Origin: Cliona cf. orientalis
Lineage: Eukaryota; Porifera; Demospongiae; Clionaida; Clionaidae
Direction of reading: 5' to 3'
Length of the DNA: 64,000 nt
Assembly: GCA_963930775.1 (NCBI GenBank)
Contig: OZ005706.1
Location: 6,626,428-6,690,427 of the forward strand
The position numbers were made by a program, and so were the translations under genes. Below the pieces are notes generated by a model. It was given only the letters and a program-made list of their open reading frames with translations. It was not told where the DNA came from and ran no database searches. This document shows positions 21,960 through 64,000 of the stretch, in pieces (position 1 is the first letter of the stretch; each line of letters opens with the position of its first letter).

Positions 21960-26498
<4,539 letters not shown>

Positions 26499-26986
26499 GT
26501 TTTTCAATAGTACTTTTGCTTTTTACATTCATTGGCACATGCAGCCACACCCATACTGCAGAGGGTGTGTCATTCCATAATGCTTGCTATTGTGTTTACC
26601 TCTTGTGCAATGACTGCATTGATAGGTGGGCATTAACCACAAAAAAAGTACCAGGGAATTCCCTCACACATTGCATGATTCTAATAATAATATACAAGCT
26701 CTTGTCAGTTTAATTAGCATTGAATACTTTTACCCCTGCGCAGCCGGCGCAGGCTGCCAAGCCAGGTGACAGAGAGTGATATACATTTAGGAAGGAAGGT
26801 TGGCTGGCCAATGAAATCCTAAGAGTTCCTTTGTGCATGCATATCAGAGATACACATGTAGTTGTGGTTAACTTAGTTGTCACATGATCTAAGTATGTAT
26901 ATGTATACCATTGTGTAGTCTAGTTTTGCTTGTATCTCTGCCCCTTTCTACATTGACAAGTGCAAGGTAATTACTCATCTGTAGTC
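26499..26986. other. Spacer between the two kinase genes
   Basis: 488 bases. The first 80 (3' UTR) are repeated near 29925-29990. No other gene is visible. Confidence 0.5.
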
Positions 26987-40041: not shown

Positions 40042-41438
40042 ACCGACTATTCCACCCACAATGAGACCAATGATACCGGACATGATATCTTATTGTCAAG
40101 TCTTACTATCAGACGTAAAATATTATTCTATCATGCGCTCTGGCAGTGATAGCTACTGACTGAAAAGAAGCCTAGGCAATTATAGCAAGGGCTTACAAAA
40201 TAAAGATAACCGAGAATGCTAAATTTAGACGGGACAAGGTGATGTCATCCCTTAAAAACGTGTGGGCGTTAGAGGCTCTTTGAGCATGCGTATTACCACT
40301 CTTGGCATTACCTGGATGTCCATACTGTAGAAAATAGGCTTTTGGATTTGTCCATCATTCTTGCAATGTCATGATTGTGTGATCATGTTTGATAGCAGCT
40401 TCTGTTTTCAAACAGCTCTACCCACTAATAGCCTTGACCTCAAACTCAGAGAAACACTCAGAGTATAGCTATAGATCCCCCTGAAACAGTTTAAAGAGTT
40501 CCATTAATGTGACGTGTAGTGTATGTTGAAGTGGCTACTCAGCAGCTGAGTTTCATGCATTAGGACTGCATGCTTTATAGCTCATGTTATGATATCATTG
40601 TTTGCATTTGTATGAGTTCAATGCAGTGTTCCCCCTAAAACTAGGTAATCGAGGTAAATACCGCGTTTAGATTCCAGAATACCGAGTTAAAGTTTCGGAG
40701 CACTATATTATAGACTATTGTAATACCTCACCAAGAAAACACGAACATCAGTATTTTACCTACTTAAGAAAATTTCCTGGGGGGAACACTGGTTCAATGC
40801 TACTGTCATAGCATGCATGTGTGTATAGGCATGACATTGTGTTTATCTTGTAAGTTGCTGTTAATGGATAATATTATGTTGAATTAATTATAGTGGGGGC
40901 ATATTTTCCTGTATTATACATACAAAGGATTGATGGCGTCAAAATAATGTAGCATGCATGCACAAAATTGTCTGATGGCACCATGACTCCAGTTCCTGTT
41001 ATTGACTCGAAAACTCCCACTGTTTGGAGTTCTATATCAAACTGATTTAATTAGCAGTAGCTAAGTGATCACATGCAAATTTCTCACGACATTTTATGAA
41101 TCACTTGAATCATAACTCTTATGTCACAATGTATCATTAATAATACAAGACTAGTAGTAGCTATAGCTATAGCCCCATTGTTACAGCACACAATCACCCT
41201 TTATGCAGTCACAGAGGGGGGCACCCAATTCTGAGTCTGAATTCTCGATCTAGTCTGAATGTTGCATACGCAATTGTATACCATACATGTATAGCTTAGC
41301 TGATCCTATAAAAGCATGTAACTTGCCTGCTACTCTTACATGAACTGGATTATTACTCGATCATCTACATCATCCGATTCAAGATTTACCACTGCCAGCA
41401 GCTATAGCTACTTTCTACATTGAAGCCGATCATTCAAC
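40042..41438. promoter_or_regulatory. Upstream region of C2-EGF copy 3, with ISG12 fragment and TATA box
   Basis: The first 230 bases copy the 5' end and upstream DNA of the ISG12-like gene (30361-30600) without a full frame. The rest parallels 30600-31544, interrupted by the MITE at 40624. The TATAAAAG box at 41307-41314 lies 125 bases before the ATG. Confidence 0.75.
40624..40791. mobile_element. 168-bp hAT-type MITE with 8-bp target duplication
   Basis: Termini CAGTGTTCCCCC and GGGGGAACACTG. GTTCAATG at 40616-40623 is repeated at 40792-40799. The homologous place in duplication copy 1 (ATTCAATG at 30908-30915) has one target copy and no insert, an empty site. Confidence 0.93.
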
Positions 41439-42427
41439 ATGAAAGTCATCGCTCAACCTGTTGGACTGTTGCTTTTGGCAAGTCTCAGCTTGCTTGGATG
41501 CACTGCTGCAGCAGTAGCAGCTGCTCCTAGTGATCAAGATTCAGCTGGGAAACTGTCAAGTGAAGTCAGCAGTGTTGCTCATGTAATACAGAATAATTAT
41601 TTACAATAATCGTGCATTGTTATGCCCCATGATCAATTGCAACTTGGGTGGGTAGCTAGCTATTATACAGTAGCTAGCTACTAGAATAGCTAGTTACCCC
41701 ATAACTTATAACTTGCATACAGGATGGCTCTGTTGTTTTTGTGTGATTCTCATTGGTGTATACACATGATGTGAATCTAGTATTAAATTAAGCATCATGA
41801 AACCTAATTCAGAAATTTCTATTGTATTTTCAGGAACGTGCTCTTCGCAGTACTAGTGCTGCTTGCTCAATCTCATGTACACCTGGCTCAGGGTTACTTG
41901 GAACACTCACTGTTCACGTCATTGAAGCTAGAAACCTTCCAGATACCGATGGACTCTTCAGCGGAGATTCTGACCCCTTTACCAGAGTGAGAGCTCTTCA
42001 AGGGGCTGGTGTTCTTAGCACGACAAGGGAAACACGCACTATTGGAGGCACCGAAAATCCAGTCTGGAATCAAGCTCTTCATTTCGGCTGTGGGGAGTGG
42101 AGATTTATTGATGTCAGTGTGTGGGATAGTGATAGTGGTGGAGATGATCTGTTGATGCCAGTCAGGCGCTTTCCTATCTGCAACTCAGGAAGGTGCTCCA
42201 TCACATACGTCAACTCTGGGTCTACTCTCGACTTTGACGTTGAGGTGAACCCTCGACAGCCGGTGAATGAGTGCTCTTCTTCCAATCCTTGCCTCAATGG
42301 AGGGACCTGTGTGGATACTCCTTGTAGCTTTCGCTGCGATTGTGCTCCTGGATATGTGGGTGATCGATGTGAAGAGTTTGAGTTTCTTTGTAGTGATCCA
42401 AACAGGCCAGTAGAGCTCTGCCCATAG
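41439..42427 (+). CDS. Secreted C2-EGF protein, copy 3
   Basis: Exons 41439-41582 and 41834-42427 give 245 residues. Layout is as in copy 1: signal peptide with an Ala-rich end, C2 domain with the acidic loops DTDGLFSGDSDPFTRV and VWDSDSGGDD, and an EGF module that here has the more canonical CLNGGTC and CDCAPGYVGDRC. The C-terminus differs (EEFEFLCSDPNRPVELCP against QDSQCENGQVCELP). Splice sites are at identical positions in both intact copies. Both look functional; the role is unknown. Confidence 0.88.
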
Positions 42428-44111: not shown

Positions 44112-47100
44112 ATGGCTATGACAAACAAATTCGTACTCTGTATAACAATTCTGATCCTTGCAGCTGTGGCTGAGTCAGGTAAATCCTACATATACTGCTA
44201 TACTAAGTGGTGGATGATTAAATTTTGTTCTAATTTGCAGGAAGGAATGATCTTAGATTAGTGACAGATATCTCAGGTGCTGCTTGTCCTGGTAATGTGC
44301 TGACGTATGAATGTGACATTGCTGGAGCTGGAAATACGATATGGAATGGAACTACATTCGATTGTCCGTTGAAATCGAATGAAATAATCTTACGTCATAG
44401 CCAGTTTAGCAGTGGAACTTCTGGAAGTTGTAATGACGGAACATTGATAGAGGTACAAAGTCTTGGAGTCATCAATAACTGCTTCTCCTCACAACTTAAC
44501 ATCACTGTCACATCTGATTTGAATAACAAGACTATACGATGCTCTCATTCTTCAAGTAGAATAGTAACGATTGGAGAAATTCGACTTTCTGTTGCAACAG
44601 GTATGTATGGATTAGTTAGGGATATGGTATAGCTACATTCCTGTAGTATGGAAACTTTTTTAGAGCATCTGTTGTTAGATATTACCTAGGTAACTAATGA
44701 CAGACTATTTTCCAATACAGAGGAACATCAATATTATTATGGTCTCAAATAGGTTCATGTTAGTGTACACAGTGACACTGTGGTAATGTAAAAGAATAGA
44801 TATATACTAATTAAATTCCTATGTCAACGTTTAAATACCCATAACTTACATGTATAATAGTTATCTGATAGTAATTGGGGTGCATGAGATGCTAGTCTCG
44901 TGCCCATCCCCTCCTACGCAAAAAGGGAGAAAGGGTCCCTCCAGAATGCAATACCATATAGCCGGAAATATTGGCAGGAATTAAATTTGGTGGTTGAGCC
45001 CAAAATCGCTATTGCAAGAATATTGGCGGATTTAAATTTGGCGGTTCAGTACGGAATTGCCATATGTATAATATATGCAAGTAGGAAATTTTGGCGAATT
45101 TTAATTTGGCAGCTGTAATACAGACCGCCAAACTGCCAAATTTAATTCCCCGCCAAGTTTTCTGGCTATACGGTAATTGGCGTTTTGGTGTGCGTTAAAT
45201 AAGAAATAAACCATACCGTGCTCGCGCATAGCTATAGGTCGAGTGCACACGATAATTACATTCCAATAGTTGTGTGACTGCAATCTGATTGGCCATGTAT
45301 GATTTTCAACGTGGGGACACGGTAGTGCGACCTTTCTCCACCCTTTTTGCGTAGGAGGGGCTAGGCACGAGACTAATGAGATGCATGGTCGAATGCACCC
45401 CAATTACTGTCAGATAACTATTTTGTTGGTAGTTGACCTCTGTTCATCATTGGCCTACTTTATGATGACCCACCCCCTTCCTATATATTATTATTATTTG
45501 CATCATACACCAACATAGGTACACAAAAAATTATTAAATTGCCCATAAAAACTTTGGTTGCTAGGCAAATTCCAACAAAATTGTAGCTATGTTTACAATT
45601 TTCATGTTGTAGAGTGGTATACTTATCAAAACTTGATTATCTACCTTGGTTATCAGCATAGCTGTGGTCGTTTCAATTTGTTTGCCATAGTGTATCAGTG
45701 ACCTCTGTACCCTTCATCATAATCAGACTTGCTCTCTCTCTCTTTCTCTCTCTCTCTCCCTCCCTCTCCCTAGTCCCCTATCCTTCTCCTTCAAATGTGA
45801 GATTAGCTGAGGTTCGTACAAGAGAGCTTATCTTTCGCTGGGATGAGGGTGCTGATCGTCCGACTGGTCTCTATTATATCATTAATTCAACATGTGGAAC
45901 TTGTCCTAATATGTCATCTACAACAGTGGCCAATTGTTCTGATTTTAATGTGTCAACTACTCTTACCACGTGTACTTTCAGTGTTCAGAGTGTGGCTTGT
46001 GGTACCATTGAAAGTCCTAGTCTCCCAGTCGTGGTGACTCTAGCAGGTAGCTCCTCTCTCTCTCTCGACTCTCTCTCTCTTCAAATCTTTCCCCTCTTTC
46101 TCTGATTTTTTCTGCAAATCCAGTCATTAACAAGAGATTATTTCAGTTCCAGATATTCCTGATGCTGCAATTATTCCTCAATATTCACAGAACAATGGAC
46201 AGTTAATAGCAATCATAGTGCGTGTAAAACAAAACGTAAGTCATGATAATTAATAATAATAAAGGTCAATCAGTATACGTGATATTGTATTGTGTGAATC
46301 TACTACAGGTAACTTCATTTTCCATAAGTAATACAATCTCCGGATCCACAACCAGCTATCACATTCTTTCCTCCGGTAGCAGTGTACCAGGCCAGCCTGC
46401 TTGCATGGAGGATACTTGTGAATACACATTTCCTCCTGATTGCTCTGGATCAAGTGTTGATATCGCTGTTGCAGCTGCTAATAGGCTTGGAGTTGGGCCA
46501 CCTTCTGAACCCAACATAATTGGTATGTGCTAGTAACAGGCCATAGTCTGTATGTATTAAATTTCTCCTAGTTTGATAAATTATCTTTACACCACCACTA
46601 GTAGCCAGCTACTATACACCTACATGCATGAAACTGCCATATCCACAGCAATAAAGGTATAAATTTCCTTCACTTAGCGTTTAAGGAAATCAGTAGGAAA
46701 CACTGCACTATTAAGCAAGATTGCATGAAGTTCGGTATTTTCTGATATAGGAAATTCAACTGCTATAGCAGACCTAGGAGCTTGTGATCATGAGATCCCG
46801 TAGATTTCTACTGATTAAAATTTAATCATACGTGTACATGTACTATACAGAAAACACCTCACCACTTGCCTCAGATATATACACTGGGATCTTTTTTGGC
46901 CGGCCTATCTATGCTATTGTAGGGTTTCCAAAACCACTGGTACAGGTGGCTGTTTACCTATCATCACTCAACTAATTTAGCCCACAATGTACTACCCATA
47001 ACCAAGCTCGATATTGTGTACAGGCACACACACACATAACAATATTATGTACACACATATATATAATAATTATGCACTCTTATAGCCTCGTCCCCAGTGT

Positions 47101-47946
47101 AACATTGAAAAGTGGCCTAGGGACAAGGCTACACACACACTATATATAGCTCTCTCTCACACTCATATGCACTCACACACACATGCACTCTGAGGTTCTC
47201 TCTCACATGCACACACACACACGGCTTTAGAGTGCAATAATCGATTTGTGAAAGTGGAATATGATCCCAGTACCACGACCATCTCTTGTGTATTTGAAAA
47301 TGAATCGGACTTATCTAAGAAATCATGCAGTGTTGACTATGGACTGTGTGGCAAAGAAAGAAATTCTGTTCAGAACAGTACCACTGAAGGCTCTCCGTCT
47401 ACTATCACATTGAAGTTGAGTGCAATTGCTACAAATTCAAAGTATTGTTATGTGGTAACGGCAAGACTTAGTAATGACACACTCACAGTCATGGTGAAAG
47501 GAAGCTTTGATACTCAGTCAAGTAGTAACGTGGGCGTGATTGTTGGTGCTGTGATAGTTGTCATAGTAGGATTGGTAGCGGGGATTGCTATGATCGTGAT
47601 TGTGATCTATTTTGTTGTAAGAAAATATTCTGGTATGTTAAACCAGGAGTGTATTAGCCGCCCATAGACTAATCATGATGTTAATTAATAATATTATTAT
47701 CTATAGCCACTAATGGGCATCCAAGTGAAGCAGATGTGGTAAAAAACAATAATTTTTATTGCATCCATGCACTAATTGTATTATTGTATTAATTTGAAGG
47801 TGGAAATGAGTGAGTCAGACGTCAAGGATTCTTCGTCACAGCAGAATGTGGCCACAGTAGCTACTGTAACAGCTGATGCAAAGGCTGAGAATGACACTGT
47901 TTCGGAAGATTTTGAAGTGGTAAAGATAGTCAGGGTTTCATCCAGT

Positions 47947-47977
<31 letters not shown>

Positions 47978-48053
47978 GGGGGGGGAAGCTTCCCCCCCAA
48001 AACACCCAGCTTCCCCCCCAAAGAGAAAGAGAGAAAGAAGAAATGAGGAAAAG

Positions 48054-48087
<34 letters not shown>

Positions 48088-50570
48088 TGCATGGTGTGGG
48101 AAAGGGAGCGTGTACATTTTTGCGTCGCATTGCAAGTGATTAGTATAGTCTCCTACTTCATGACTCAATTATTTAAGAGCACTAGATAAAACTATGCAAT
48201 ACCTCAGTGACATCAGAAAATACAATCATTAATCGATATGAATTCTTAATTGGGGGAGGGGTCACGGTGCGTGAAACTGCCACGCCCACTCCCCCCCCCC
48301 CCCCCCCCCCAAATTTTTTTCTGGATGAAACCCTGATAGTATAATTATTGTGTCCTAGCTCTGATTAGGAGAGCCTAGCTGAGCTTCTATAATTCGTGTA
48401 CAGGTGGATAAGGACGTATACAAAGATGATCTGACAGAGATCAGATCAGTACAATTCAAAGAATCAACAGTTCAAAGTGATTGTAAATTAGATGACCTTA
48501 AGCCCAAACATGGCAAATATATATTTGTTGACTATAAACATCGCACATCGGAAAAAGTCATCGATATTATGCTTAAGGATAAGGTTTGTCGTAGCTATAG
48601 TCACATGTGAATACATTTTGATCAGCTATATATGTACGCATTAGCTATTATATTATACTCCCTATAGTAGGCACCTCTGCCTTTTTCTGCGATTAGCTTT
48701 GCCTAAGTAGGCTATGGGATGGTTGCCTCTTACTGGGTATTATCTTGGAATACTAGGCAGTATATAGGGTTAATATACTCAAAGTTCATGTGTATATTAT
48801 GCAGGATGGGCAATGGTTCTCTGGTATTATTGCACGGGATGGAATCAGCCAAGAGCAGAGGGATACTTGGGAGAAGGTGTTCGTCTTACTGAATCAAAGG
48901 GAAGTTTTCTTAAACAAGGATGAAGTCATTCTTCATCAGGTACCAAGATTAATGGCTGATCTACTCTTACTAATGTATAGTGCCATCCAGCTTGCTCTAA
49001 TTAGCTATGTGTAAGGCACAATGATTACAAATATACCGTAAAGTCTGGTTAATAAGCGCACATGCTTATTAAGCGCATATTTTTTAATAAGCGCATGCTT
49101 CCTTCCTGTTATTAAGTATCGTCTAATAAGTGCATGCGTCCAAAAAAGACGACAGTAATATTCACTGTTCGAGCATGAGTTCTCCATGTTCTACATGGTT
49201 AGAACTTGTTTACCAACCTAGTTTCGGATAGCCAGCTGCACGAGATCGGCTTTACTCAACACTGAGACGATCCACTGAGATGGATTCGGACTTTTGACCT
49301 TCACTTAGAAGTGAGTATTGCCAAAGAAATCTGCTATTTTTCCGGTTTTCTTCCAGCGATGGCTTCCGATCATACTCCTATGAACTATTGATTACTCCAA
49401 GAATCGCTGTATTCATAACCTGCTAGCTTTGTGATTGAGCGCTCGAATGTGCTGGCAGTGGGCGGGGCCAAAACTTCACTCTCTATTAAGCGCACATCGT
49501 CTAATAGACGCATGTTTCCTTACCACTGAGAGTGATAAGTGCATGCGCTTATTAACCAGACTTTACGGTATTATGTGTATGGCTCTTCATCCTGTACAAC
49601 TTAACGTACTAGTAATGCTCTCTCACGGTAGAAACAGTTTGTACAACCACTAATTTAATTTCTGTAGCACACACTATAGCTGGGTGTAGCTGTGATATAA
49701 TAAATTATATATTAATCATCCATGAAAATGGTAAGAATTATTATCATTATACAGGATAGCGACCAGCTAAAAAAGATGCTAAAATTTCGAGTATTTGATG
49801 TGGATGAATTAGATAATGATGGTGAAGGCCCTAAGTTGTCACAACTGAAGATCGATAAGTTTGATTATGCAAGAGCCTACTATGAGTTTTCAGATGGTAA
49901 ACTGGATCTCCTTTATTACCGTGAAATTATAGAAATATCTAATTCTAAGGTATTCTATGTAAAATTTTGATGGAGTGAGTGGCATGTATGTAGGTATACA
50001 TGCAGTCGAACCTGTATTATTATAGTGGTCACTGTGTAAGGTAGCAACCCCATTATCTTATGCATGGTTGACGCTCCAAGTGGCAAAGCTCCATACATTG
50101 CATATTCACCACTTTATTTAAAGCAGTCATGTACCTATCTGCTATATATTATAGCTAGCCACTGATTTTTTTTTACCTATGGTGACCACTCTAGACAGGT
50201 TCCATGTATACATCTTGATCGTGTTTACGATATAATTGTATTATTTTAGCTCAAAGAAGCTAAGTCGGCTGGAAATGGTTACATCATACTTGAATCCAGT
50301 ACCGGCCGTGGTATTCACATGTTCTATAAGTTGAAACCGCAAGCTCCTGGTGTGAAAATAACGCGTCCAAACGTTAAGAATGGTCGCTGTTTTGTCCAAG
50401 GTACGCCACAAGATTTGGACCACTGTCTTAAAGTTGGATCATTAATACTTTACCAGGTATGTATAGGGTACAAAATTAGTTTAATATCATCAGTAAAGAT
50501 CCTATTGCCTTTGAAATTAACACGAATACATGCACTATAGGAGGATGTAGATTCTGAAAGTCACAGATAA
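44112..50570 (+). CDS. Receptor A: Ig-like + FN3-like ectodomain, one membrane span, novel cytoplasmic tail
   Basis: Thirteen exons: 44112-44178, 44241-44600, 45774-46046, 46147-46235, 46309-46522, 47231-47632, 47707-47738, 47800-47919, 48404-48583, 48805-48939, 49755-49949, 50250-50456 and 50541-50570, in phase to 767 residues. A signal peptide is followed by an Ig-like module (ACPGNVLTYEC ... IWNGTTFDC ... EIILRH), an FN3-like module (NVRLAEVRTRELIFRWDEG), a second FN3-like module split over exons 4 and 5 (AAANRLGVGPPSEP) and a Cys-containing membrane-proximal module. The membrane span VGVIVGAVIVVIVGLVAGIAMIVIVIYFVV follows. The tail of about 280 residues has an acidic Ser/Thr-rich start, then a folded-looking part (YIFVDYKHRTSEKVIDIM, MLKFRVFDVDELD) that I cannot assign. 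Ectodomain exon junctions are mainly phase 1, tail junctions mainly phase 0. Its 3' end faces receptor B, 183 bases away. Confidence 0.85.
44856..45422. mobile_element. 567-bp element with long terminal inverted repeats, in receptor A intron 2
   Basis: AATAGTTATCTGATAGTAATTGGGGTGCAT at the left is mirrored by the right end up to 45422. Inside, GTCTCGTGCCC and CCCCTCCTACGCAAAAAGGG recur inverted. No open frame of note; a non-autonomous DNA transposon is likely. The target duplication is unclear. Confidence 0.8.
47931..48335. mobile_element. 405-bp inverted-repeat element with G and C homopolymers, in receptor A intron 8
   Basis: Termini CAGGGTTTCATCCAG and CTGGATGAAACCCTG, flanked by ATAGT on both sides (47926-47930, 48336-48340). 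A 30-base G run (47947-47976) just inside the left end faces a 20-base C run (48291-48310) near the right end. Internal GA repeats create false ORFs. Confidence 0.85.
49036..49568. mobile_element. 533-bp CCGTAAAG MITE, in receptor A intron 10
   Basis: Termini CCGTAAAGTCTGGTTAATAAGC and the inverse GCTTATTAACCAGACTTTACGG, flanked by TA. It is a longer relative of 16452-16857, sharing the AATAAGCGCAxATGC subterminal repeats. Confidence 0.88.
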
Positions 50571-50753
50571 TGCATACTCACAAGGGTCTATAATATATAT
50601 TATTATTTTAATAGTATTACGTTTTGGATCTATAATATTGTAAACTCAAGATGTATAGTAGTATAGTAGCTATTTAGATTAATTTTGTTTTGTTCCTAGA
50701 ATTTTGCAACGTGACTGAACTGTTAATAATATTATTGTAAATTTTTATGTTTT

Positions 50754-53632
50754 CTAAAAGATAGAATTGCTGTTGTTAACTTTCCTCTTAGCCTCTGTGA
50801 CTTCCTCCCATGTTGGCTTGCTTGGGTGGTTCCTTAGCCAGTAGTCAAGCACCTCAACCAGACACTCCTCATCAGAGTGATGCTTTATGTGATTCAAGAT
50901 ATCTTTGGGCAGTCCGATAGCCAATCCAAAGGAGTACCACTTGGAGGAAAATGATCCTCGAAGAGTATGCACCAAGCTATTCAGATCACACACTAGAGTT
51001 TCATCTACAATATTATTATTACATAATAATAATAATAATAACATTCTATTGCACAGTCTGATTATGAATCAGAAACTCAACCTTTTCTGGAGCTGTCTGT
51101 CTTCAAAACAGTAACATCATCAAGACTTTCGTCACCAAGGTTATAGATGCCCATGTTCTAATTTTATGTGTAGCCTATGATAAACTTTTAGCATCAAATT
51201 AAGTAATGGCAAACAGTTTACCTCATTGTCAAAAGCTTTCAAAGTTACATCTATATAGCTTTTAACTTCATTACGATTCGTTACCTACATGTTATAGGGT
51301 GAGACTCAGTTACACTATCTAATGCAGCCATTTTGGTTTTACCAGTGACTGTCCATAATAATAATAATATGTAGTGCAGCGCAAGCATTGTGATAAAAGT
51401 CAATTTACTCAGCTACTTGCAATTGTGTACCCTATAATTCTTAATTTTTAAAATTATGCCAGTTGATGCCTATAATATTATAGCATAATTCTCAAATGCT
51501 TACTTGTGACACACACCTACTATGCTCAATTTTATTATGCCGGCATAATTTACCCACTCCTAGCTGTTATAATCATATTATATGCGTAGACTGAGCTAGC
51601 TATTACCAGATGATGTGTACTTTCTTCTGGCAATGGTGCTTTAGGATCCGTATTATGGCTACAAGTTGCATTACATACAATAATTGCATAATAATTATTA
51701 GTCACCATAATTTAGTATTAATGATGTCACTTACGTTGATGGGATAGACCTTTTACGAAATTTAAATCCAAGCAGAAATAATGGTATGGTTGCCAAGAGA
51801 AGTAAAAACAAGAGTACAAAAACACCAAAAGTGACCAGAATATTTAACACCTCGGGCCCTGAGCCTGCTATAGATAAAAGAAATTCTAGTAAGTAGGTAT
51901 AAAATATTATTATACGTACTATGGTATTAACAATTGGGTGATTCATGAAATCATTATGAGATGTGCATGCATGACCTTAATTGTATATATTTTATTATAC
52001 CTTCTATAGTTCCCATATCCATGTAAGTGCTGGTAGATAGAGAGAGTGTACTTGTATGCATGCAGATATCGATAATAGATGTGTTGACATTCAAGCTTAT
52101 GGAACCAACAAGGTTTTCACTTATACCATTATCGTGAGAACACGCAATGACTTTTCCAATCATTCCAGACCTTGCAATAACAACCAATTGTGAAGTATAA
52201 TGATTGCTATCATTTCCCATCGTTACATTCACACTCTGAACATATATCATGCCGCCATTATTGCACATGATTGCACTTGCTGTCACAAAGTTAGTATGTA
52301 GCAGTACAATCTCAATATCCTTAGAGTTACATTCATCAAAAGCAGATCCTTTCCAAACAGTGGCATCGCTTTCATTTCCATTTACAGTGCACTCAATTGT
52401 CGTATTAATGCTCCAAGGACAGATACTGGTGGTAATATTTGTGATAAGCTGTAGGTTACCAGCTCCTTCTTTGTTGCCAGCTTACAATAATATAAAATAA
52501 TACTGTACTTTATCTAATACTACGTATGGAAAAAATTTTGAAAAACGCGCGTTTTTCTGGTAAAGGTCGTCAATCGCTCCATATATATACGTTATGAGAA
52601 TTCTTAAAAATCTACGTTAGATTGGATCATACGATTAACTACGGTAGTTATTAAAGAGGCTCAGTTATGAAAATGAATGCACTAGAGTGCAGAATCCTCA
52701 CCACTACATGCATGCATATGCATGACTCATGTGCGTGTAAAGCATGGCTCACTGTGTATAGCTATGCCTATTCAACATCAGGAGTATTGAGCTATAATAT
52801 TATAGCTACATACCCTGCAGCAGTGCACCTGAATAATATTATGGTTATGGACGGTACTGTTCAAGTCTCTTCAGAATCAGTGCACATGGTCTATGAGTAT
52901 AGGCCACTCCAAATAAATTTCCTGTTTCCCGTCCACCGCCCGCATCCTTTTCTGGCATGTCACGAAATTTTCCATTATTAGTACTCTTGCATGTATGCAA
53001 TATCCGCATTTACTTTTGTACACGTAGTATACTTGCCTCAAGTGAGTGATAATTAATTAGTTTAAGTGTTTCCTGTAGGCCTTGCTACTAATGGGATTTA
53101 CCGCCCGCCCGCATACTACATTAGTTCTTTCCAGGACGGGAAACAGGAAATTTATTTGGAGTGGCCATAGTAGGGAGGAGGCACCTGGCTATGTCACTAT
53201 AAACTATAGCTACAAATGAAAGCTTTTGTGACATAATAATTATACCTATTAAAACTGAATTATGCGCTTGAGGGCCACTGCCTGCCAGTTTACACTGTCA
53301 CTGTTGATAACTGACAAGCAAAGCACAGTCAATCAGCTTAGGTAGCTATAAGCCTCGAATGCAATGCGTACTTTCTCTCATACCATTTAGCACAGGAATC
53401 GCCGAATGACTCTCCGCCTACGCTTTGCGGCAAGGATTATAATGAGGATCTATAATATAGTCTACGTATACTAAATATTATTATGAAAGACTTACCCGAT
53501 CCTTCAATTGCAAGCAGACATAAAATTAATAATAGCAGCTTCCACAGCTGTATCCATATAGTACTATTGTTCACTCTCACATTCAAAAATAACCATCGGA
53601 TTATCTGGACAAATAAATTATGCACTTACCAT
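50754..53632 (-). CDS. Receptor B: Ig-like ectodomain, membrane span, Death domain
   Basis: Eight exons: 53630-53632 (ATG only), 53496-53547, 52001-52480, 51735-51867, 51607-51658, 51222-51284, 51082-51157 and 50754-51004, in phase to 369 residues. Signal peptide LWKLLLLILCLLAIEG. The Ig-like module in exon 3 has CPWSINTTIECTVNG, TVWKGSAFDEC, EIVLLH and a late Cys (VIACSHD), with many Asn sequons. A membrane span (VLNILVTFGVFVLLFLLLLATIPLFLL) and a basic stop follow. The C-terminal 82 residues form a Death domain: SSKWYSFGLAIGLPKDILNHI ... ECLVEVLDYWLRNHPSKPTWEEV. Death domains recruit FADD- or MyD88-like adaptors by homotypic contact. The exon 7 donor is the weaker GTTGAG. Paralogue of receptor D with the same exon plan. 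Stop codons of A and B are 183 bases apart, tail to tail. Confidence 0.85.
51415..51565. repeat. Dispersed AT-rich repeat, copy 1
   Basis: AGCTACTTGCAATTGTGTACCCT ... ATTATGCCGGCATAATTTACCCACTCCTAGC in receptor B intron 5. An inverted relative lies at about 54465-54612. Confidence 0.75.
52902..53166. mobile_element. 265-bp element with GGCCACTCCAAATAAATTTCC termini
   Basis: The first 33 bases (GGCCACTCCAAATAAATTTC on) are exactly inverted at 53134-53166. It lies in receptor B intron 2. Subterminal CCGCCCGCA/CCGCCCGCCC stretches are direct repeats. No coding capacity; the target duplication is uncertain. Confidence 0.85.
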
Positions 53633-54464
53633 TACGATTGTTTGAATGCTCTGTGCTGTTGGACTCAACTGAGTTAGCTAGTGTATTTCAACTAGAATGT
53701 GTATAGCTACTGTAGTTGTAGCTACGTGTTCACTATCAGATTCCCGATGCATGACATGATTGTGATTTGTCAACATACATTTCCCAAATGGGTGCTGAAT
53801 AATAATATTATTGTAACACTGTCATTGTTACTGTAGTGTTTGCATAATCATGAATAATTATTATGAATGAGTATTATTATAGTTATTATACATATACTGG
53901 TACCCAGGGCATTGATTGTGATTTCTGTCAGTGTACTATAGCTAGAAGGTCTATAGTGATAGCTATAGGTGTGCAAATGTATATATAGCTTGCTGAAATA
54001 ATATATATGAAACCTTTGATTCTGAGCATCAGGTGGGAAATCCAAGACCAAAGTTGCAGCTGTATTAATTTTGTCCGTATATACCGTCTCTATGTTTTCA
54101 CTCTCTGAGCAGCTAGTCCCAAATGAAACTATGTTATACTCCAGTGTTGATCATGTTATTATACAATCAAAGTACCGTAGCTAACATACAACTGTTCCCA
54201 ATTGCAATTGCAAGCAAAGCATGATTGCTGAGTCATGGCAGATGGTTGCACTTCTGTTACTGTCATGTAGCTATGCTCATGACAACTACATGAGCTATAG
54301 TTATTATCAAAACTTTCACTTCTGCTAGTGCATGTATTTGAGCAAAATTTGTCAATAATTATTATGAAGTATCTTTATTACCAGAATGATCCCGAACATT
54401 AATTTTGGTGCTTCGGTCAATTGGAACCATGTATACTAGGCAGTATGGCCACGGAATATCGGTG

Positions 54465-54612
54465 CTAGTTAGGGGTAGGTAAATTATGCCGGCATAATAA
54501 TTAATTTTTGAGCATAATAGGTGTGTATAAGCATTTGAAAATTATGCCAGCATTTTAGGTATCAACTGGCATAATTTTGAGAATTTTAGGGCACACAATT
54601 GCAAGTAGCTGT
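54465..54612. repeat. Dispersed AT-rich repeat, copy 2
   Basis: Inverse of the element at 51415-51565 (TAGGGGTAGGTAAATTATGCCGGC ... CACACAATTGCAAGTAGCT). Confidence 0.75.
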
Positions 54613-55187
54613 TAATCGACCTTTGTTACAACGCCTGGACTACATACTATGGACTGGTAAAGGGTTGATCAATCAGCTGGTACCCACTTTAGAATCTGAG
54701 CACATGTAAAATTGAAATAATATTATATAAGTATACACTTGATGATAGTGTAACTGAGTCTCATATTATTTAATAACTATATTATAATCGTTTCACACTC
54801 GAGCATAATTATAGCCTTAATTTCTACAATTTCCCCTGCAGCATGGCTTATGAGACAAGCTAGACAGCAATCACCTTCCATTATGTCCGATTCCATAGAT
54901 AAAGATGATCCTATACTTGTAATGATCTGATTGGTTGAACTGCAGTATCTATATCCTTCATAATAAAACCTTGTAAGCCCCATGGCATAAAATATTTTTG
55001 CCCATATGGCTAATTTGTTGCTAAGCAGTGGGCATTATTGCTAGGATCTTAAGTAGTTAGACACTGTTTAGTCAGTTTCTATGTGATTTATAATTAGAAG
55101 ACCTCAGGGCTCAGTAGAATTAACCCTTGCTTCGCTCGGGATTCTATACAGAGCCCTTCTGTCTTCTAGATCAGGTAGAAACCTCCC

Positions 55188-55378
55188 GATTAGGGATGTA
55201 GCTACATTGCATGCATTGTATTATCAGCAGAGATAATAAAGGTCATTAATTGGGACTATTGTAATAGTTAGACATTGTTTAGGCTAAACAATGTCTAACT
55301 ATTATAATAGTCCCAATTAATGACCTTTATTATCTCTGCTGATAATACAATGCATGCAATGTAGCTACATCCCTAATC
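55188..55378. repeat. 191-bp near-perfect palindrome
   Basis: GATTAGGGATGTAGCTACAT at 55188 is mirrored by the end at 55378. The arms are 95 bp with a single-base spacer at 55283, and I find one mismatch (G/A in ATTGTAATAG against ATTATAATAG). It could extrude a cruciform. Confidence 0.95.
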
Positions 55379-56057
55379 TGGTGAGCTAGCCCCTTCACAA
55401 GACTAGCTACATCGATTCCCTACCAAGGATAACCCAAGGATGTGAACGAGGAAGAAAGAGACTCTGAGTGGCTGATTGAATTAGCTAAAAGCTAGCTAGT
55501 AGGTATACTTACTGTACATGTGTGCATTCTGATCAGTGGTTACAGATAAAATAAATTAAATAGTATTATAGAGAGATAGTGCCGTATATTACAGTGCTGT
55601 TACTCACTGTAATGAGGGCCTTGAAGGGTGAATCCAAATTGATATGCAATAATTGTATTATAATAGCGTGTATGCGCCAAAGGAAGTGGAAGCTCAGCAT
55701 ACAATGTCATGTATTAATTTTGATGATGCGGAAGCATAATGATAATGAAAACACTACGTATGCATGATCACCGTAAACATGTTACTGATATACTGTACAC
55801 AATATCTGAGCCATCAATAACATCAATCAACCACAATAAGATTTTTTGCAAGGCAGTAAACAAGAAAGAAACTGTGAAAATCATTCAGTTTTGATTAGCA
55901 CACTTATACTCTACTGGCTACGTAGTAGTTAGATCTAGTGATAAATTGCAATTGTCACGTCACTTTGTCACTGCATGAAATAAACATTGAAGGTGCTAAT
56001 CTATGATAACTACGTATAGTCTAAGAAAAAGAAGTGTCTCAGATATCAATAATAATC

Positions 56058-57460
56058 ATGCTTGCTATCATCCTCTTATATGAAATGATTCTCATTCTGT
56101 ACAGCACTCCGCTTATAATATCAGGTAATTAAAAAATAATTGCATGTTAAAGCTACATGCTTGCATCAGTATTTTTGCATCATATAGAAGCAAGTGAGCT
56201 GCGAGTCCTTAATAGAACAAATGGAGTTCATGCTTGTCCAGGAAGAATTTTAACGTTTGAGTGTATTGTGAATGGAACGTCAGGAGATTCTACAGTCTGG
56301 AGGGGAACAGCTTTCAGTGATTGCGAGATTATATTGCTACACAATCGATTTGAGAATGAGGAAGGTACTACTACCTGCAGCAATAGCAACATAACTGGTC
56401 GGAGTGTGAGGATTGAAGGAAGCCGCTATATTTCACAACTTGAGATTACTGTAGATCCTGAAACGGTGGGAAAGAGTGTAGCCTGTGCTCGTGATGATGG
56501 AAGTAAATCATACACCATTGGAAGCTATCAAATAAGTGCAGGTATAATAGCTATTAATAAAAACAGTGGTAACTTATAGTTTGTTGCTTGTATATTATCA
56601 TTATTAGTGTTGATAGTCTGAAAGTGAATAATTATTAGTAATATTATTATTGCCGGTAATTGATCTTTTTCCTTGTAGTTTCCTCCTGGCCACTTCGCAT
56701 TCAGGTTGACAATCAATCAGCACCTTTTTTGGTAAATTCACAACTCTCCTTTAGCTGGGAGCCTGCCATTTCTGATTGCCCAACTGCCGATATTCGCTAC
56801 TATATCTTAGCAGCAAACTGCGGTACCTGTCCTATTGCAACAGCTGACACTCCTATCACTTGCGATGATGTGCCTTTGTGTGGGTTTTGCATACTGGCAG
56901 TACAGACTGTCATTGGTGATTATGCTGTGAAGGACTTACTAAGTGATCCTGCTTACATTTCATTGAATCAGACGAGAAATTGTGTACAAATTGGGTCTAA
57001 CAACACGGAGTCAAACACTGGTAAAGAAAATTGGATTGCATATACATGATATAGTGTGTCAGTTTCCCCCCATAAGGTAAACTTACCCCAACATGTATAC
57101 ATATACAAAAATAGGGAGTAGGAAAGGGGGGGGGGGGATCATTATGCTTCAATTACATCTAACTTTCTTGATACAGAATCTGATGTGAATAGTGGCAGGA
57201 TCATAAGCTTCACTACATTTGTGGCATCCATTGCTTCCACTGCTGTAATTGCTGCAGCTTTGACACTTTGTATCATCATGATCATCATGGCTTTGAGATT
57301 TACGGTAAAAAAGAGGGCGAGAAGTTTAAAATCATTACAGCGGGCTGATGCTGAAAAGCACCAGGCGGCAGAGGTACGACTTTATGAACCAACTGAACCT
57401 ACAGCTATAGCACATCTGAAGTTGGACTGTGTGACCGTTGAAAATACTGTGTATGCATGA
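56058..57460 (+). CDS. Receptor C: Ig-like + FN3-like ectodomain, membrane span, short tail
   Basis: Four exons: 56058-56124, 56188-56541, 56679-57020 and 57177-57460, joined in phase 1 to 348 residues. After a signal peptide the Ig-like module shows ACPGRILTFECIVNG, TVWRGTAFSDC, EIILLH and SVACARDDG, the same pattern as receptors A, B, D and E. One FN3-like module follows (PFLVNSQLSFSWEP ... ILAANCGTCP). The membrane span is FVASIASTAVIAAALTLCIIMIIMAL, then a basic stop and a tail of about 55 residues with tyrosines at RLYEPTEP and ENTVYA that could be phosphorylated; they do not match a full ITIM. It lacks the long tail of A and the Death domain of B and D. Tail to tail with receptor D (195 bases between stops). 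Confidence 0.85.
57125..57137. repeat. G homopolymer in receptor C intron 3
   Basis: Thirteen G in a row shortly before the exon 4 acceptor. Confidence 0.9.
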
Positions 57461-57655
57461 TGCCAGTAGCATTAATTACCGTCGTTACAACACATAATCG
57501 GCAGTAGCTAAAATTCCATTAACTTTAATTTCACACAAAATTTACTATCATTAAATTTTAAATTTGAATGTGATTCTACAACAGTTACAGTTACTATATT
57601 AAAGTACATTGTTGCAGCAAACTAAGTCAGGAGTTTCAATTAGCATGCATGATAG

Positions 57656-59629
57656 TTATATTGTGCTGTACTTGCTTGATGCAATTCTGTTCTTGGCGTC
57701 CATGACCTCTTGCCATGTTGGTTTGCCAGGATGTTGCTTAAGCCAGTAGTCCAGCACTTTGTCAAGACACTCTTCATCGGAGTCACATTTCAGCTGATTC
57801 AGGAACTGTTTTGGTACTCCAAGGGCTAACCCGAATGTATACCACTTTGAGGAAACTTGTCCTCGAAGTGCACACACTAGACTATGTTTAAGATTACAGG
57901 ATGAAGTATCACCTGTAAAGTAACTAGTATGATGCATGCTATACACAATAATAAGAAATTATTATGCAAGAAAAATTGGCATTTTAGGTTGCTATATTAT
58001 CTGACTAGCTCACCTTGCACTGTGAAATTTTCTATATCAGAGAGACTATAGATGCCCAGTGTTGACTATAATAGAATTAATAATGATACATGCATGAATG
58101 AAACAGGTGACTGAGAAGTGAAGGAAGAAAAAAATTCAGGACTAAGCCAGGATTTGAACCAGGACCTTCTGAATTCTAGAGAATGTACATACAATAATAT
58201 TATAGCTACATGCATGTACATGCATGTATGTATACTGTACATGTCATTACATGTTGAGTTGTACCTCATTATCAAAACTCTTCATAATCTCCACACAACC
58301 TCCAGCTTCATATCTGATAGCCTATGTTACAGTACATGTTACAATATATTATAGTTGTATTTCACAGTGCATTAATTCTTATGTCACTAGGCCAAAATGA
58401 TATTATTAGTTTCTTATACCTCCTGCCATGCCAAAACATATCCGACTCATTTCCTACACTATGTATCTGGTATAGGGTAGAATTTCATACAAATGAATGA
58501 AATTTTGCTGTATCCTACAAATTTCCTACGTACATGTATACAGCTCTTAGTAATATTATTGCATTAATTAATATTATACCTGACGTATGTTTTCTCCTAG
58601 CATTCTATCTCCACTATCATGCCAATAAGAAATATTCATCATAATCAATTACCTATATTAAGTGTAATAGCTATCTTACATTGGTTTGGAGCGGAACTTT
58701 TTATAGAGTCCACACAGTAACAAAGGTACAATGAAGAGTACTATGAATAGGAGTGAGAGAGTACTAGAAATAACAATGATGTCCAACTCTAAGACTTGTG
58801 ATTCGGTTCCTGTAACACAATCATTAAATTTTTATACGTATGTAGCTAGTGAGTGAGCAAGCTATTGCACCACAGCTATATAATATACCTTCCATGGCCA
58901 ATGTTGTGGTGTAATTTATTGCACTATCATTTAATAAGTCTTCCGATGATGTACAGATGTAAGATGTATTGATAGTAATCGAATCAACAACTGTTTCAGC
59001 TGTGCCATCATCGTGAGCACAAGTAACACTTTTCAAAGGCATTTCGTTAAGACCAGGTTTGACTAGAACCTCCAGTTGTGAAATGTAACTGTTATTTCTA
59101 ACCCCTATGCTCCGACCAGTCAATGATATGTGACTAGTGTTGCACTGACTAGAGTCAGTTTCTCGGCTATGTAGGAGTACAATCTCTTCGTTAGTATCAT
59201 CACAGCCACTGAAAACTGTTCCCTTCCAGACTGTAGAGCCTCCTGATGTTCCTCCATTGACAGTGCATTCAAATATGACTCTCCAGTTGCAAGGGAAAGC
59301 ACTGACTGTGTCTGTTCTTATCTGCTCAAGGCTACTAGCTCCAACTTCACAGAGTTCATGCATATAGGCAGAAAATATGCGGTAACCTATAGGTCTCTGC
59401 GTCAATGTGAAGGCTTTAATCTAGAGCTATTATAGTGCTTACCCAATCCAGGATTATGAAGCAGACGAAAATTCATGATCAATAGCAAATTCCATAGCTG
59501 CAATAATTGTAATATTAATACCATATTAATTATTTTCATCAAATAAGGTCATGCATGCTGAATCAATTCAGAATCTTATGTATATAGCTGTAGACATAGT
59601 TATGATACTTTTTCACTTACTATCATCAT
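57656..59629 (-). CDS. Receptor D: Ig-like ectodomain, membrane span, Death domain
   Basis: Eight exons: 59621-59629, 59443-59497, 58889-59344, 58680-58809, 58580-58613, 58265-58321, 58014-58065 and 57656-57912, in phase to 349 residues. The plan equals receptor B exon for exon. The Ig-like module has FPCNWRVIFECTVNG, TVWKGTVFSGC, EIVLLH and SVTCAHDDG. Membrane span IIVISSTLSLLFIVLFIVPLLLCGLY. The C-terminus is a Death domain: SSKWYTFGLALGVPKQFLNQL ... ECLDKVLDYWLKQHPGKPTWQEV, about 60 percent identical by eye to that of B, against a much more diverged ectodomain. An alternative acceptor for exon 3 at 59386 would add 14 residues. Cytoplasmic exons 5-7 (GIYSLSDIENFTVQ, MKSFDNE) match B (GIYNLGDESLDDV, LKAFDNE), so the linker is conserved too. 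Confidence 0.84.
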
Positions 59630-60676
59630 GGATGGATTATAATAGCATTGACGCTCAAGGAATTGAGACATGTAGTAACGTTTCAATCGAAGCTAGTTAT
59701 CAGTAGCTACTGCACGTGCATGTTATTTAGCTATAGTATCTAGCTAACAGTGGCTGTTATATCTGCTCCACATATTAATATTATGCCAATGGACAGAATT
59801 TGTCAACAAATATATATTTCCCAAGTTTACGATGTATTAAGTAAATAATATCATAACATTCTATGCATAATATATTAGCCAAACAACGGACACTTTCAAA
59901 ATTGGGGGTAATATAAATTCAGCTGTTTCAGTGTCCCTTAGTCGGCATGCAGTAGCTAAAATAGCTCAGACCACAAACCTTCAACTCTTAAAAATTAATA
60001 TTAAGTGATTCAAGGCTAATTGTTATCTAATTATTGCGTTTTGCCCCTACCCTCAAAGGATATTACTGAATATGGGTGAATAGCCTGTAAATTAAATTAA
60101 GTGCCTGTAGCTAGCTACATGCATGAAAATCAAGCAAAAGAAACACCTGCGGCTGCTGTTGGCACTGGTAAAAGGATAGTAGGCTTATTATAATATTGTG
60201 AATGAAATTGAGGTTGAATTGGCACAATCTGATCAGTGAGAAATTGTGTGCTTTTGGGCAGTATTGTCGCGTCGGGGGCGCGCAGGGCAGGGGCGGGGCG
60301 TGTTCAGGACCGCATTCCCTAGCTCACGCGCTTGTAATCATGTGATTCACTAGAGCGGCTACTTTTCGTGGCGATCGCCGGAGATCTAGCTATAATTATG
60401 ATAGCTGAGGAGCTTCCGATGTCTGGTAAGCTATTGAGTTCCGTTTTGATTGATCGCGCTATTAATACTTGTATAGCTACATATACTCCTCCATTTTCGT
60501 AATAACTGCGGGCCTGCTCAAATCACAGTATTGATTATATTATACGCCCCCTTCCCCTATGGTACAACTATTTACTATATTATGTACTATAATAGGTTTA
60601 TACTAGCAACCACGGGCCTCAAGTTCTACTGAATTAGATCACCATCAGCTCATGCAGGTACCGTATAGCTATAGCC
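59630..60676. promoter_or_regulatory. Head-to-head spacer of receptors D and E with a GC-rich patch
   Basis: Mostly AT-rich. At 60260-60440 a GC- and CpG-rich stretch (GTCGGGGGCGCGCAGGGCAGG) stands out and could be a promoter. It is followed by ATG ATA GCT GAG GAG CTT ... TCTG|gtaagc (60398-60425), a possible alternative first exon of receptor E with the right phase but no signal peptide. Confidence 0.5.
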
Positions 60677-63600
60677 ATGTATCGGCGCTGGATAGACCGT
60701 ATGTCATACGGTATGTTCTTCCTCCTTGCAATTGCTGTGTCTCACTGTTTCATTCTAACTGAGTCAGGTAATAGCTAAGTAGTAATGTTCATAAGTTGAA
60801 ATTATCTGACATATCTATAACTCTGCAGCAAGCAATGAATTTATGCCACAGACTGTGGGAGATGCTTGTCCAGGTGACGTGCTAATGTACAATTGTACAA
60901 TTAATGGAGGTGGAAGCACGATATGGAGTGGAAGTGCCTTCGACTGTGAAACGAGGAATGACGAAATCATTCTACGTCACAGCCAGTTTGAGCCAGGATC
61001 ACCGTCTGGGAACTGCAACGATGGAGCAGTAACTGCACAAAGTCTTGGTGTCGTTGACACCTGCTTCTCCTCACAACTTAGCATTGCTGTTGATTTGGAA
61101 ATGAATAATAAAACTGTGCAGTGTGCTCATTCTACCACAGTAATAACACCTATTGGAGTAGGTATAATTTCCATTGCAACCGGTGAGTCAGTTTTGTGGG
61201 GGTGGGGTTGCTTTAGGTTCGTATGCATGCTTTATTATACTAGCTAAATCAACATTATGTTATAGTTATAGCACGGGGCCAGGGATTTATGGCAGTAAAC
61301 CGACCCGAGTCCGAGGGCGTAGCCCGAGGATAAGGGCGGTTTACGTCGCCATAAATCCCTGGCAACCGTGCTATAACTATTATATATCCCACCTGATTGG
61401 CTAAAAGTCACGCGCACCATAGTCTACATGCATAGCAACAACCGTTCTAACCTAGCAACAATAGTTCTGAACAGAAAGAGAGTTGCACAGTAAAAACAAA
61501 CCAGCAAAGAAGCAACCGATGACGGATGGCTTGAGTCACGGAACCATGGCTAGTTAAATCAACCAGTGCTTCAGCTTTCCGTGAACAGAAGACAGTCAGG
61601 TAGCTTCGAAAACAAATAGAATAGTTTCACTGTTCAACAAACTCGGGCAATGGCTATTGAGACCTGGACCAGCAGCTAATACAGCTACAGTTCACTTGCA
61701 GTTGAACTTGCCACGTGGTAGAACTGACAGATCGAGTGATAGCTAATTGGTTCCTGATTAATGTCAATTAGTGTGCGTGTGTTTCCGTGTCTGTGTAAAC
61801 AATGTCTACTGCCTATGTACAGTGGAGTGTGTGTGCAACCATGGTGCAATCAGTAGTGGCACTGTGCTGATGCACACGCAAATATAGTAGGTATGATGAT
61901 GTGACTGCGTGTGTGAACTAAAACAATGGCTCTGATTGGTCAAAGTAATAGCCAGAGGGAGGGAAATATGGATCATATTTTCCCTTGTACCCCTCAGGGA
62001 GGGAAAATATCCTAGTTATACCCCGGCTGATATAGTACTTAGGTATACTTAGGTGGGATATATTGTGCTTTATATAATAGCTAAATCAACATAATTTATA
62101 TATAGTCAAGTGCTGCAATTGTGTATCTATGATAAATACTACCATGGTAGATAAGTTTCCAATGTGGGGAAAGTAGCTAATGCGTGCAATGTTTCATAGT
62201 TAATTACTCAGTGCCATACATAAAGTAAACAGAGTCAGGGGCAGGTTTTAGGGGTCAGCTACACCCAGCCTATGTTTACTCTTAGGCATATTTGTGGGGA
62301 GGGAGCATGCCATATTATAGCTATAGGATAATATTAGATTAAATACTATATTAACAATATATTTTGTGGTTATAATACTTGCTAGTATATATGGCTATGA
62401 TTATTTATAGTGATATGTAGATCAATGGGCTTGTGGTTAAATTTGACCTCTGTATGTATAGTTGCATGTAGCTATCATACTTAATCTGTACGTCTTGAGC
62501 TGCTCTCCATCCTCCCCCCTTCCTCTCCAATACACGCCCAATGCATTCTCAACAGCCCCTCCAGCCGATGTGAGATTGTCTGAAGTTCGTCCTGGAGAGC
62601 TCACCTTCAACTGGAGGACTAGCACTGATCGTGAAACTGGACTTAACTACACTGTCAATTCCACCTGTGGAGTCTGTCCTATTGTGACCAATACAACAAT
62701 GGTCACTTGTTCTGCCCCTACTCTATCCACTACTCCTACCATGTGTACTTTCAGTGTTCGTAGAGTGGCATGCGGTACCATTGGGAGTCCTAGTCTTCCA
62801 ATCATTGTGACTCTAGCTGGTAATTTCTCTCTCTCTCTCTCTTTCTCTCTTCTTCTTATTCTCTCTCCCTTCCTTCCTTCCTTCCTTCTCTGCAAATCAA
62901 AATTTCAAACTTATTTTCCTTTAGTTCCAGATGCTCCTAATGTGACAGTTGTTCCTCATCATTCTCTGAAGGATAATAAGCAGTCATTAACAGGAATTAT
63001 AGTCCGTGTAGAAGACGTAAGTAATGATTTCTCATATTATGCAATGAATACATATACATGTAACTCATGAATATTCACTTTATTTCACTGTTCAGGTTAC
63101 CACATTTTCCATCACTGACACAATACCAGGATTCATTACCAGCTATCGCATCTCCTATGGTAGCAATATGCAAAACAAGTTTGCTTGTATGAGTAGGACT
63201 TGTGAATACACTGTTGATCTACCCCCTTCCATTTGCTCCACAACTGGACCGGGTGTTGACATCGCCGTTGCCGCAGCTAATGTCCTGGGATTTGGACCAC
63301 CTACTGAATCCATTGCCATTGGTACATAATATGAAGTTTGTAATAATTATTATACTGTATACTTTCTAAATTTCAGAGTGCAACAGTCAATTTGCTCGAG
63401 TGAATTACTACTCAATAAATACAACGTTGTCTTGCACATTTTTGAGCGAATTAGACACATCTCCTAAATCTTGCACTGTTAGGTATGGAATTTGTGGACA
63501 GGAAGAGTACACTATTCAAGGCAACGTCAGTGATGAGTCACCTTTTGAGATCTCAATAGGACTGAATTCAAGTATTGTAGAATCAATAAACAATTGTTGC

Positions 63601-64000
63601 TACATCATTACGGCAAGAAATGGAACATACGAGATTATAGTGAATGGAAGCTGCACAAGTCTACCTGCGAGCGAAGGGGTTGATAATGCTCGAGATCTCA
63701 GACTGGTTTCTCTCATAGTACTACTAACAATTCCAATAACAATTATTATTCTAGTGGTACTTGGATTTATCATTTTTTGGAGAAGAAAAGTACATGGTAA
63801 CCAATTGTGTGATCTGGCCCAGGGGTTGCTGGTATAACTTAGATTTTATCCTTCTTTGCCTGAATAGCAATACACCCCCACTGAATGTACTATGTACTTA
63901 CATAAAGTTTTGAATAATTATTGCAGGTAGATGTGCAGATGATGACATGCATCAGCATGGTCATGAGGTATATATCAAAGCCATAACATAAGTATAAGTT
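60677..64000 (+). CDS. Receptor E: Ig-like + FN3-like receptor, 3' partial
   Basis: Exons 60677-60767, 60829-61182, 62556-62819, 62925-63016, 63096-63321, 63377-63796 and 63927-63967; the gene continues past the window. Exon order and phases equal receptor A: signal peptide (FFLLAIAVSHCFILTES), Ig-like module (DACPGDVLMYNC ... IWSGSAFDC ... EIILRH), FN3-like module (DVRLSEVRPGELTFNWR), split second FN3-like module (AAANVLGFGPPTES), membrane-proximal Cys module (SCTVRYGICGQEE) and membrane span (LVSLIVLLTIPITIIILVVLGFIIFW). The first tail exon (RCADDDMHQHGHE) has the place of GHPSEADV in A but is unrelated in sequence. The start ATG at 60677 is chosen for the signal peptide. The ectodomain is clearly paralogous to A; the tail is not visible. 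Confidence 0.85.
61262..61380. repeat. 119-bp hairpin in receptor E intron 2
   Basis: ATAGTTATAGCACGGGGCCAGGGATTTATGGC is mirrored by GCCATAAATCCCTGGCAACCGTGCTATAACTAT, with a GC-rich loop (CCGAGTCCGAGGGCGTAGCC). It is unlike the AT-rich surroundings; a small inverted-repeat element is likely. Confidence 0.85.

Follow-up and report, generated by a model that had tools for sequence, protein, structure and literature searches.

A stretch of 64,000 nucleotides on chromosome 18 of the sponge Cliona cf. orientalis (positions 6,626,428-6,690,427; genome size 216.8 Mb), hereafter the window, contains the first part of an array of eight receptor genes, labelled A to H, which reaches window coordinate 73847, with F, G and H lying past the window end. 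From its predicted anatomy, the array is almost certainly a cluster of single-pass receptors of the immunoglobulin superfamily (IgSF), in which a shared V-set-like immunoglobulin (Ig) module is combined with one of three tails. Judged from its relatives elsewhere in the genome, the chromosome 18 locus is an outpost of a large, lineage-expanded IgSF receptor family. The overall reading that we favour, and to which we give an even chance, is that this expanded family would form a paired-receptor system signalling through a Death domain, phosphotyrosines or a third type of tail.

Gene models A-H were assembled manually by joining open frames across GT-AG introns, and the coordinates of the end of E and of F, G and H continue the window numbering beyond 64000. 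All eight predicted models are open from ATG to one stop codon without internal stops. The initial annotation, made from the window, had listed five genes in the order A(+) B(-) C(+) D(-) E(+), and each was recovered as a single open GT-AG model on that strand. Gene A (44112..50570, +; 13 exons, 767 amino acids [aa]) is predicted to encode a signal peptide, the Ig module (exon 2, 44241..44600), FN3-like modules, a membrane-proximal module with the one transmembrane segment (TM; exon 6, 47231..47632) and a long tail (exons 9-13, 48404..50570). Gene B (50754..53632, -; 8 exons, 388 aa) would encode a signal peptide, Ig module (52001..52480), TM and Death domain (50754..51004). Gene C (56058..57460, +; 4 exons, 348 aa) has a signal peptide, Ig module (56188..56541), FN3-like part, TM and short tail with tyrosines, and gene D (57656..59629, -; 8 exons, 349 aa) has an Ig module (58889..59344), TM and Death domain (57656..57912). 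Gene E (60677-65206, +; 12 exons, 761 aa), which leaves the window at 64000, is A-like, with its Ig exon at 60829-61182. Beyond it lie two further Ig-TM-Death genes, F (65613-67160, -; 355 aa) and G (69461-71245, -; 372 aa), and the C-like gene H (72647-73847, +; 307 aa).

A and B are convergent, with 183 bases between stop codons (50571..50753), as are C and D, with 195 bases (57461..57655), both distances being identical to those first reported. A Death-domain gene opposite E had been predicted, and F was found there, convergent with E at 406 bases between stops. Overlapping 3′ untranslated regions are possible for the convergent pairs, judged from this spacing. The head-to-head neighbours B/C, D/E and G/H are separated by 2425, 1047 and 1401 bases, respectively, between start codons. 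Exon phases match between A and E (save for one extra tail exon in A), among B, D, F and G, and between C and H. The 5′ ends are the least certain portion of the models, because B, D, F and G begin with exons of just 3-9 bases and the signal peptides of D, F, G and H, judged by hydrophobicity, are weak.

One Ig-like exon is common to A-E, the copies in B-E being 33-53% identical to that of A, and it has phase 1-1 in all eight genes, in agreement with the single shared module initially described for the five. An AlphaFold model of the exon product, with moderate scores, shows a V-set-like Ig fold. The residues that mark a V-set, namely the cysteines of strands B and F and the tryptophan of the core (C24, C100 and W34 in A exon numbering), were kept or nearly kept in the 23 rows aligned. 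Related Ig exons were detected elsewhere in the genome with E-values down to 2e-32. The Ig module generated no match in Pfam; the FN3-like modules, likewise without a Pfam match, were recognised by pattern alone. Profile searches of PDB with the Ig and Death alignments gave nothing convincing, and viral contigs scanned with the Ig alignment gave three pattern matches and no relative. The exon also carries five near-invariant cysteines (A residues 15, 24, 41, 63 and 100), an odd number, so that one may stay unpaired and be available to link a dimer by a disulphide bond.

The tails fall into three classes: a Death domain (B, D, F, G), a long unclassified tail (A, E) and a short, tyrosine-bearing tail (C, H). 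The Death-type tails are 141-163 aa long, with little beyond the Death domain itself. PF00531 was the best Pfam family for the tails of B and D, below the cut-off (E 0.005 and 0.009). An AlphaFold model of the domain of B, aligned with D, reached a pLDDT of 84.6, and in Foldseek the first 13 rows were all Death domains (probability 0.87-1.00, E 0.4-1.2), among them those of ankyrin, FADD, Fas and TNFR1. On this model, the C-terminal domain of B and D is assigned to the six-helix Death domain superfamily; DSSP delimited five helices of four or more residues. Related Death exons were found elsewhere in the genome with E-values down to 1e-21. TSP1, ZU5 and UPA generated no Pfam match in B and D, which were scanned whole, and neither A-D nor the ectodomain and tail of E gave a TIR match. 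Among related Death loci at 11.0-13.9 Mb of chromosome 2, L042 and L043 have tyrosine motifs (VYADIGP, VEYA) directly before the Death domain.

In A and E the TM is followed by the long tail, of about 300 aa, which neither Pfam nor PDB profile searches assigned convincingly to a family. Its two halves were compared as possible internal repeats, which hhalign rejected (probability 1.4%). The short tails of C and H are weakly similar (best E 0.07) to tails encoded in an array on chromosome 1, whose genes follow an Ig, FN3-like and TM plan and carry motifs of the YEEV/YEDI type and NVAY, in some genes more than once. Judged by this plan, common descent of the C/H tails and the chromosome 1 tyrosine tails is likely. 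The tyrosine-tail alignment gave nothing convincing against PDB profiles. By eye, six tails contained one match to the consensus of the immunoreceptor tyrosine-based inhibitory motif (ITIM), SDYENI, and no activation motif (ITAM), the remaining motifs being of the YEEV/YEDI type and NVAY. YEE[IV] fits Src-type SH2 domains and NxxY fits PTB domains. The initial annotation had each convergent pair joining an Ig+FN3 receptor to an Ig+Death receptor; the Death tails of B and D bear this out, whereas FN3 is recognised by pattern alone and the plus-strand partners are of two kinds, long-tailed and tyrosine-tailed.

The size of the family was estimated by merging the matches of three Ig queries and joining starts within 250 bases. 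At least 237 distinct Ig exons were counted genome-wide, at least 141 of them on chromosome 1, and at least 31 Ig exons have a related, same-strand Death exon no more than 5 kb downstream. Among the matches listed, chromosome 1 carries 74 Ig exons on one strand at 2.74-3.02 Mb, 70 of them followed by a tyrosine-tail match (tails within 700 bases merged), and 60 Ig exons on both strands at 3.02-4.70 Mb. Long-tail relatives amount to about 25 genes, counted as terminal-exon matches, mainly at 3.18-4.52 Mb of chromosome 1 with a few on chromosomes 5, 16 and 18. The first long-tail query had given one match outside the locus, and a query from chromosome 1 then revealed the family. A complete A-type gene was traced at 3.424-3.430 Mb of chromosome 1. 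Death genes elsewhere combine the tail with Ig alone or with Ig and FN3-like modules. At 11.0-13.9 Mb of chromosome 2, dozens of related Death exons occur, with no Ig exon of the family among the matches listed.

Rows of equal score occur as twins at 2.80-3.02 Mb of chromosome 1 (e.g. 2808239/3017875, 2804546/2934409 and 2802472/2932335) and may reflect recent copying of segments or haplotypes left unpurged. Such twins count in favour of the rival view that the receptor genes are an artefact made of unrelated neighbours, pseudogenes or haplotype copies in the assembly. We consider this highly improbable for the chromosome 18 genes, which lack internal stops, share introns by class and are strongly diverged, with Ig-exon dS of 0.28-0.45 among D, F and G and 0.88 between A and E.

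The A/B and C/D arrangement had been taken for a duplicated two-gene cassette. The recurrence of such pairs was assessed by circular shifts for 21 long-tail genes (those with a terminal-exon match) and 17 Death genes at 3.18-4.58 Mb of chromosome 1, scoring neighbours within 3 kb. Five convergent long-tail/Death pairs were present against 0.42 expected (p = 0.00035), and with A/B and E/F such pairs total seven. Further convergent pairs are C/D and one with a short tail at 3.633 Mb of chromosome 1, the latter outside the test. The choice of gene lists, distance limit (3 kb) and test was post hoc, made once the first pairs were known. Left out were seven long-tail rows with a preceding-exon match alone or a weak match (3219166, 3226973, 3264633, 3873619, 4452111, 4507115 and 3645831) and two weak Death rows (4559847 and 4572383); their inclusion, nine rows in all, again gave five pairs, at p = 0.0005. 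Removal of one near-copy and the query seeds left two pairs against 0.32 expected (p = 0.039), and p ranged from 0.0005 to 0.039 over the variants in which near-copies or seeds were dropped or rows added. Other distance limits gave p = 0.013 (1 kb), 0.0039 (2 kb), 0.0018 (5 kb) and 0.021 (10 kb). As orientation is nearly forced at such a short 3′-to-3′ distance, the test addresses proximity. The pair at 3.42 Mb was traced through both partners, the other pairs being represented by some exons of each.

Several observations weigh against assigning this layout a role in a paired system. Two of the five chromosome 1 pairs are recent copies of each other, with Death exons 96% identical, and two of the five were the source of a query or were first found beside Death loci. 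No such partner lies within 3 kb of 16 of the 21 long-tail and 12 of the 17 Death genes, G has no convergent partner, and the big array on chromosome 1 is one-stranded. Opposite-strand neighbours with a Death member are head-to-head in ten cases and tail-to-tail in six, with three of each on chromosome 18 itself, a coarse count in which missed exons may break adjacency. These features would also be left if the tail-to-tail layout were functionless, a residue of duplication and inversion where genes lie densely clustered, and we rate that explanation only a little below an even chance; against it, the pairs exceed circular shifts in the strictest variant as well, with A/B and E/F in addition. 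The convergent unit of a Death gene and a partner is thus recurrent and not universal, since most chromosome 1 relatives are unpaired and the head-to-head arrangement is at least equally common.

A tree of the Ig exons was built from 23 rows, five of them without a tail label, after partial rows from L027 and L030 were dropped by length. A and E grouped with a long-tail gene of chromosome 1 (support 92/90), and D, F and G grouped together (96/93). C, H and B, the last on a long branch, attached to the D/F/G group at 57/96, which places C and H apart from A and E. The tail labels required four changes on the tree against 7.3 in shuffles. These groupings, together with the low number of changes, indicate that the Ig lineages are to some extent distinct for each tail and that some of the similarity is local. 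The Death exons nearest to that of D were those of the other chromosome 18 genes (85, 82 and 61% identity), followed by chromosome 1 (57%). One fixed two-gene unit copied in step is ruled out by the Ig tree; of the proposed cassette, the recurrence of the pair therefore stands, and its copying as a unit does not, in line with the many unpaired relatives.

Among D, F and G, dN/dS was 0.42-0.63 for the Ig exon and 0.20-0.48 for the Death exon, and for the Ig exon it was 0.42 between A and E and 0.31 between C and H. No average omega above 1, as a sign of diversifying selection, was found between paralogues (Ig dN/dS 0.20-0.63), and Ig variability was not significantly greater outside the strands (p = 0.14). 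By average dN/dS, the receptor genes are under constraint.

Other genes were noted around the array and elsewhere in the genome. In the window, a single open frame at 33058-37803 (-; 1581 aa) has many FTNNSAA-type repeats (Chlam_PMP, Pfam E 1e-6), after which several membrane spans can be made out by eye. Two adjoining protein-kinase frames with coiled-coil-like stretches, seen by eye, and a kelch frame lie at 25095-29598 (+). Three related frames (31880-32485, 39818-40159 and 41801-42427, +) stand near the receptor array; the last has a C2 and EGF pair, the first appears by eye to have the same, and 39818-40159 resembles its start, also by eye. Past the window end, at coordinates of about 77000-97500, L010-L013 comprise by eye a GABA-B-type receptor-like gene (-) and Ig/FN3-like receptors of another type. 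Long open frames of 869-894 aa with a Death domain occur at L003 (chromosome 2, about 2.99 Mb), L004, L006 and L008. In L003 (616 aa examined by eye), the Death domain is followed by a membrane span and then a P-loop STAND-type NTPase, an order that looks odd for an NLR-like protein.

Similar ectodomains joined to different tails within one cluster, here with moderate Ig similarity, are the feature by which paired receptors are recognised. In vertebrates, paired receptors (KIR, LILR, PILR and SIRP) have near-alike extracellular regions and differing signalling parts (PMC3533184); their members are inhibitory and stimulatory, whereas in Cliona one partner has a Death tail and the other an unclassified one. 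Adjacent FF/FcoR receptor pairs are formed by the fester family and fester co-receptors of Botryllus schlosseri (PMC12065747). The portion of that report available to us describes Ig with sushi, ITIM, hemITAM or SH2 parts and mentions no Death tail, and roles in fusion and rejection are demonstrated there, whereas the Cliona receptors, from a different phylum, are candidates. The Alr genes of Hydractinia, with at least 41 loci, are clustered IgSF genes of low mutual identity, as in Cliona, and both Alr1 and Alr2 cross the membrane once (PMC11067881). Alr1 and Alr2 are polymorphic and genetically tied to allorecognition, and the excerpted text of that paper makes no mention of Death tails. Among sponge genes, the TLR-like Ig-TIR receptors combine Ig outside with an innate-signalling domain inside (PMC12909245, PMC8242945), but this domain is TIR and not Death, and the genes, in the parts of these sources available, are few (six in Dysidea avara).

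The UNC5 netrin receptors have an Ig ectodomain, one TM and a C-terminal Death domain, together with TSP1, ZU5 and UPA. The Cliona Death-tail receptors share the Ig ectodomain, single TM and C-terminal Death domain, but the tails of B, D, F and G are nearly Death domain alone, and TSP1, ZU5 and UPA have no Pfam match in B and D. No sponge Ig-TM-Death family was found among the best matches in open-licence literature, a body that mostly excludes subscription papers; this is weak evidence of novelty. With that weight, the Cliona family appears to be a new combination, paired-type IgSF receptors with an added Death arm and an unnamed third tail. In Cliona, profile searches overlook the family because its Ig module and long tail have no Pfam match and its Death domain falls below the cut-off, so it may sit unnoticed in other sponges.

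The signalling mechanism that we propose for these receptors falls slightly short of an even chance. Family members would act as paired receptors, the shared Ig module binding related ligands, so that the receptors share or compete for them. When clustered, a Death-tail member would nucleate a Death-domain adaptor complex, with apoptosis or an NF-kB-type output; tyrosine-tail members, once phosphorylated, would recruit SH2 or PTB proteins; and long-tail members would signal via their own, as yet unnamed, domain. The balance among members would set attack versus tolerance, and the gene pairs would have spread through duplication. The division into a ligand-sensing receptor and a death partner suggested initially was not upheld, as both members of a pair carry the Ig module and differ in the tail. 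V-set and FN3-like ectodomains, which are frequent in adhesion molecules, would also fit developmental receptors for adhesion or aggregation in place of immune ones; adhesion genes seldom have Death tails, copies by the hundred or three interchanged tails, which makes such a role quite improbable.

The ligand may be another sponge, the dinoflagellate partner or bacteria. If it were microbes or the endosymbiont, the same receptors would form a pattern-recognition or symbiont-screening family and not one for sponge self/non-self, which we regard as a real but lesser possibility. C. cf. orientalis hosts Symbiodiniaceae (PMC12639293), and in the portion of a study of two other demosponges available to us, Ig, Death or Ig+CARD genes shift after microbial stimuli, those that respond to microbial molecules including an Ig+CARD gene and genes with Death domains (PMC6208332). 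Big tandem arrays and constrained sequences are compatible with such ligands, but family expansion does not discriminate among ligands. For the favoured paired-receptor system, an innate or self-recognition role, as raised in the initial annotation, is possible, and the receptors are good candidates for sponge recognition of self, partner or microbe. It is unlikely, though conceivable, that the chromosome 1 complex (2.74-4.7 Mb) and its outposts are a sponge histocompatibility and symbiont-screening complex of hundreds of V-set receptors, which would distribute one recognition module among Death, phosphotyrosine and a novel class of tail, and whose convergent cassettes would link killer and restraining receptors of one specificity. 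If this were true, paired-receptor logic would reach back to sponges, with the Death domain as the activating arm.

DD2, a Death-domain protein, has reportedly been tied to sponge allograft rejection, as the title of a cited study has it. In a sponge grafting transcriptome, adhesion, apoptosis and aggregation-factor genes were not significantly enriched, according to the part of that report available (PMC5450542). The genes behind self/non-self responses in sponge grafts are unsettled, and the Cliona family provides a concrete, mapped candidate set. Provided that the Death tail is functional, a single membrane protein would carry contact recognition directly through to cell death. With a shared Ig module and three tails in linked pairs, the family would offer a way to test, in an early animal lineage, how paired receptors arose.

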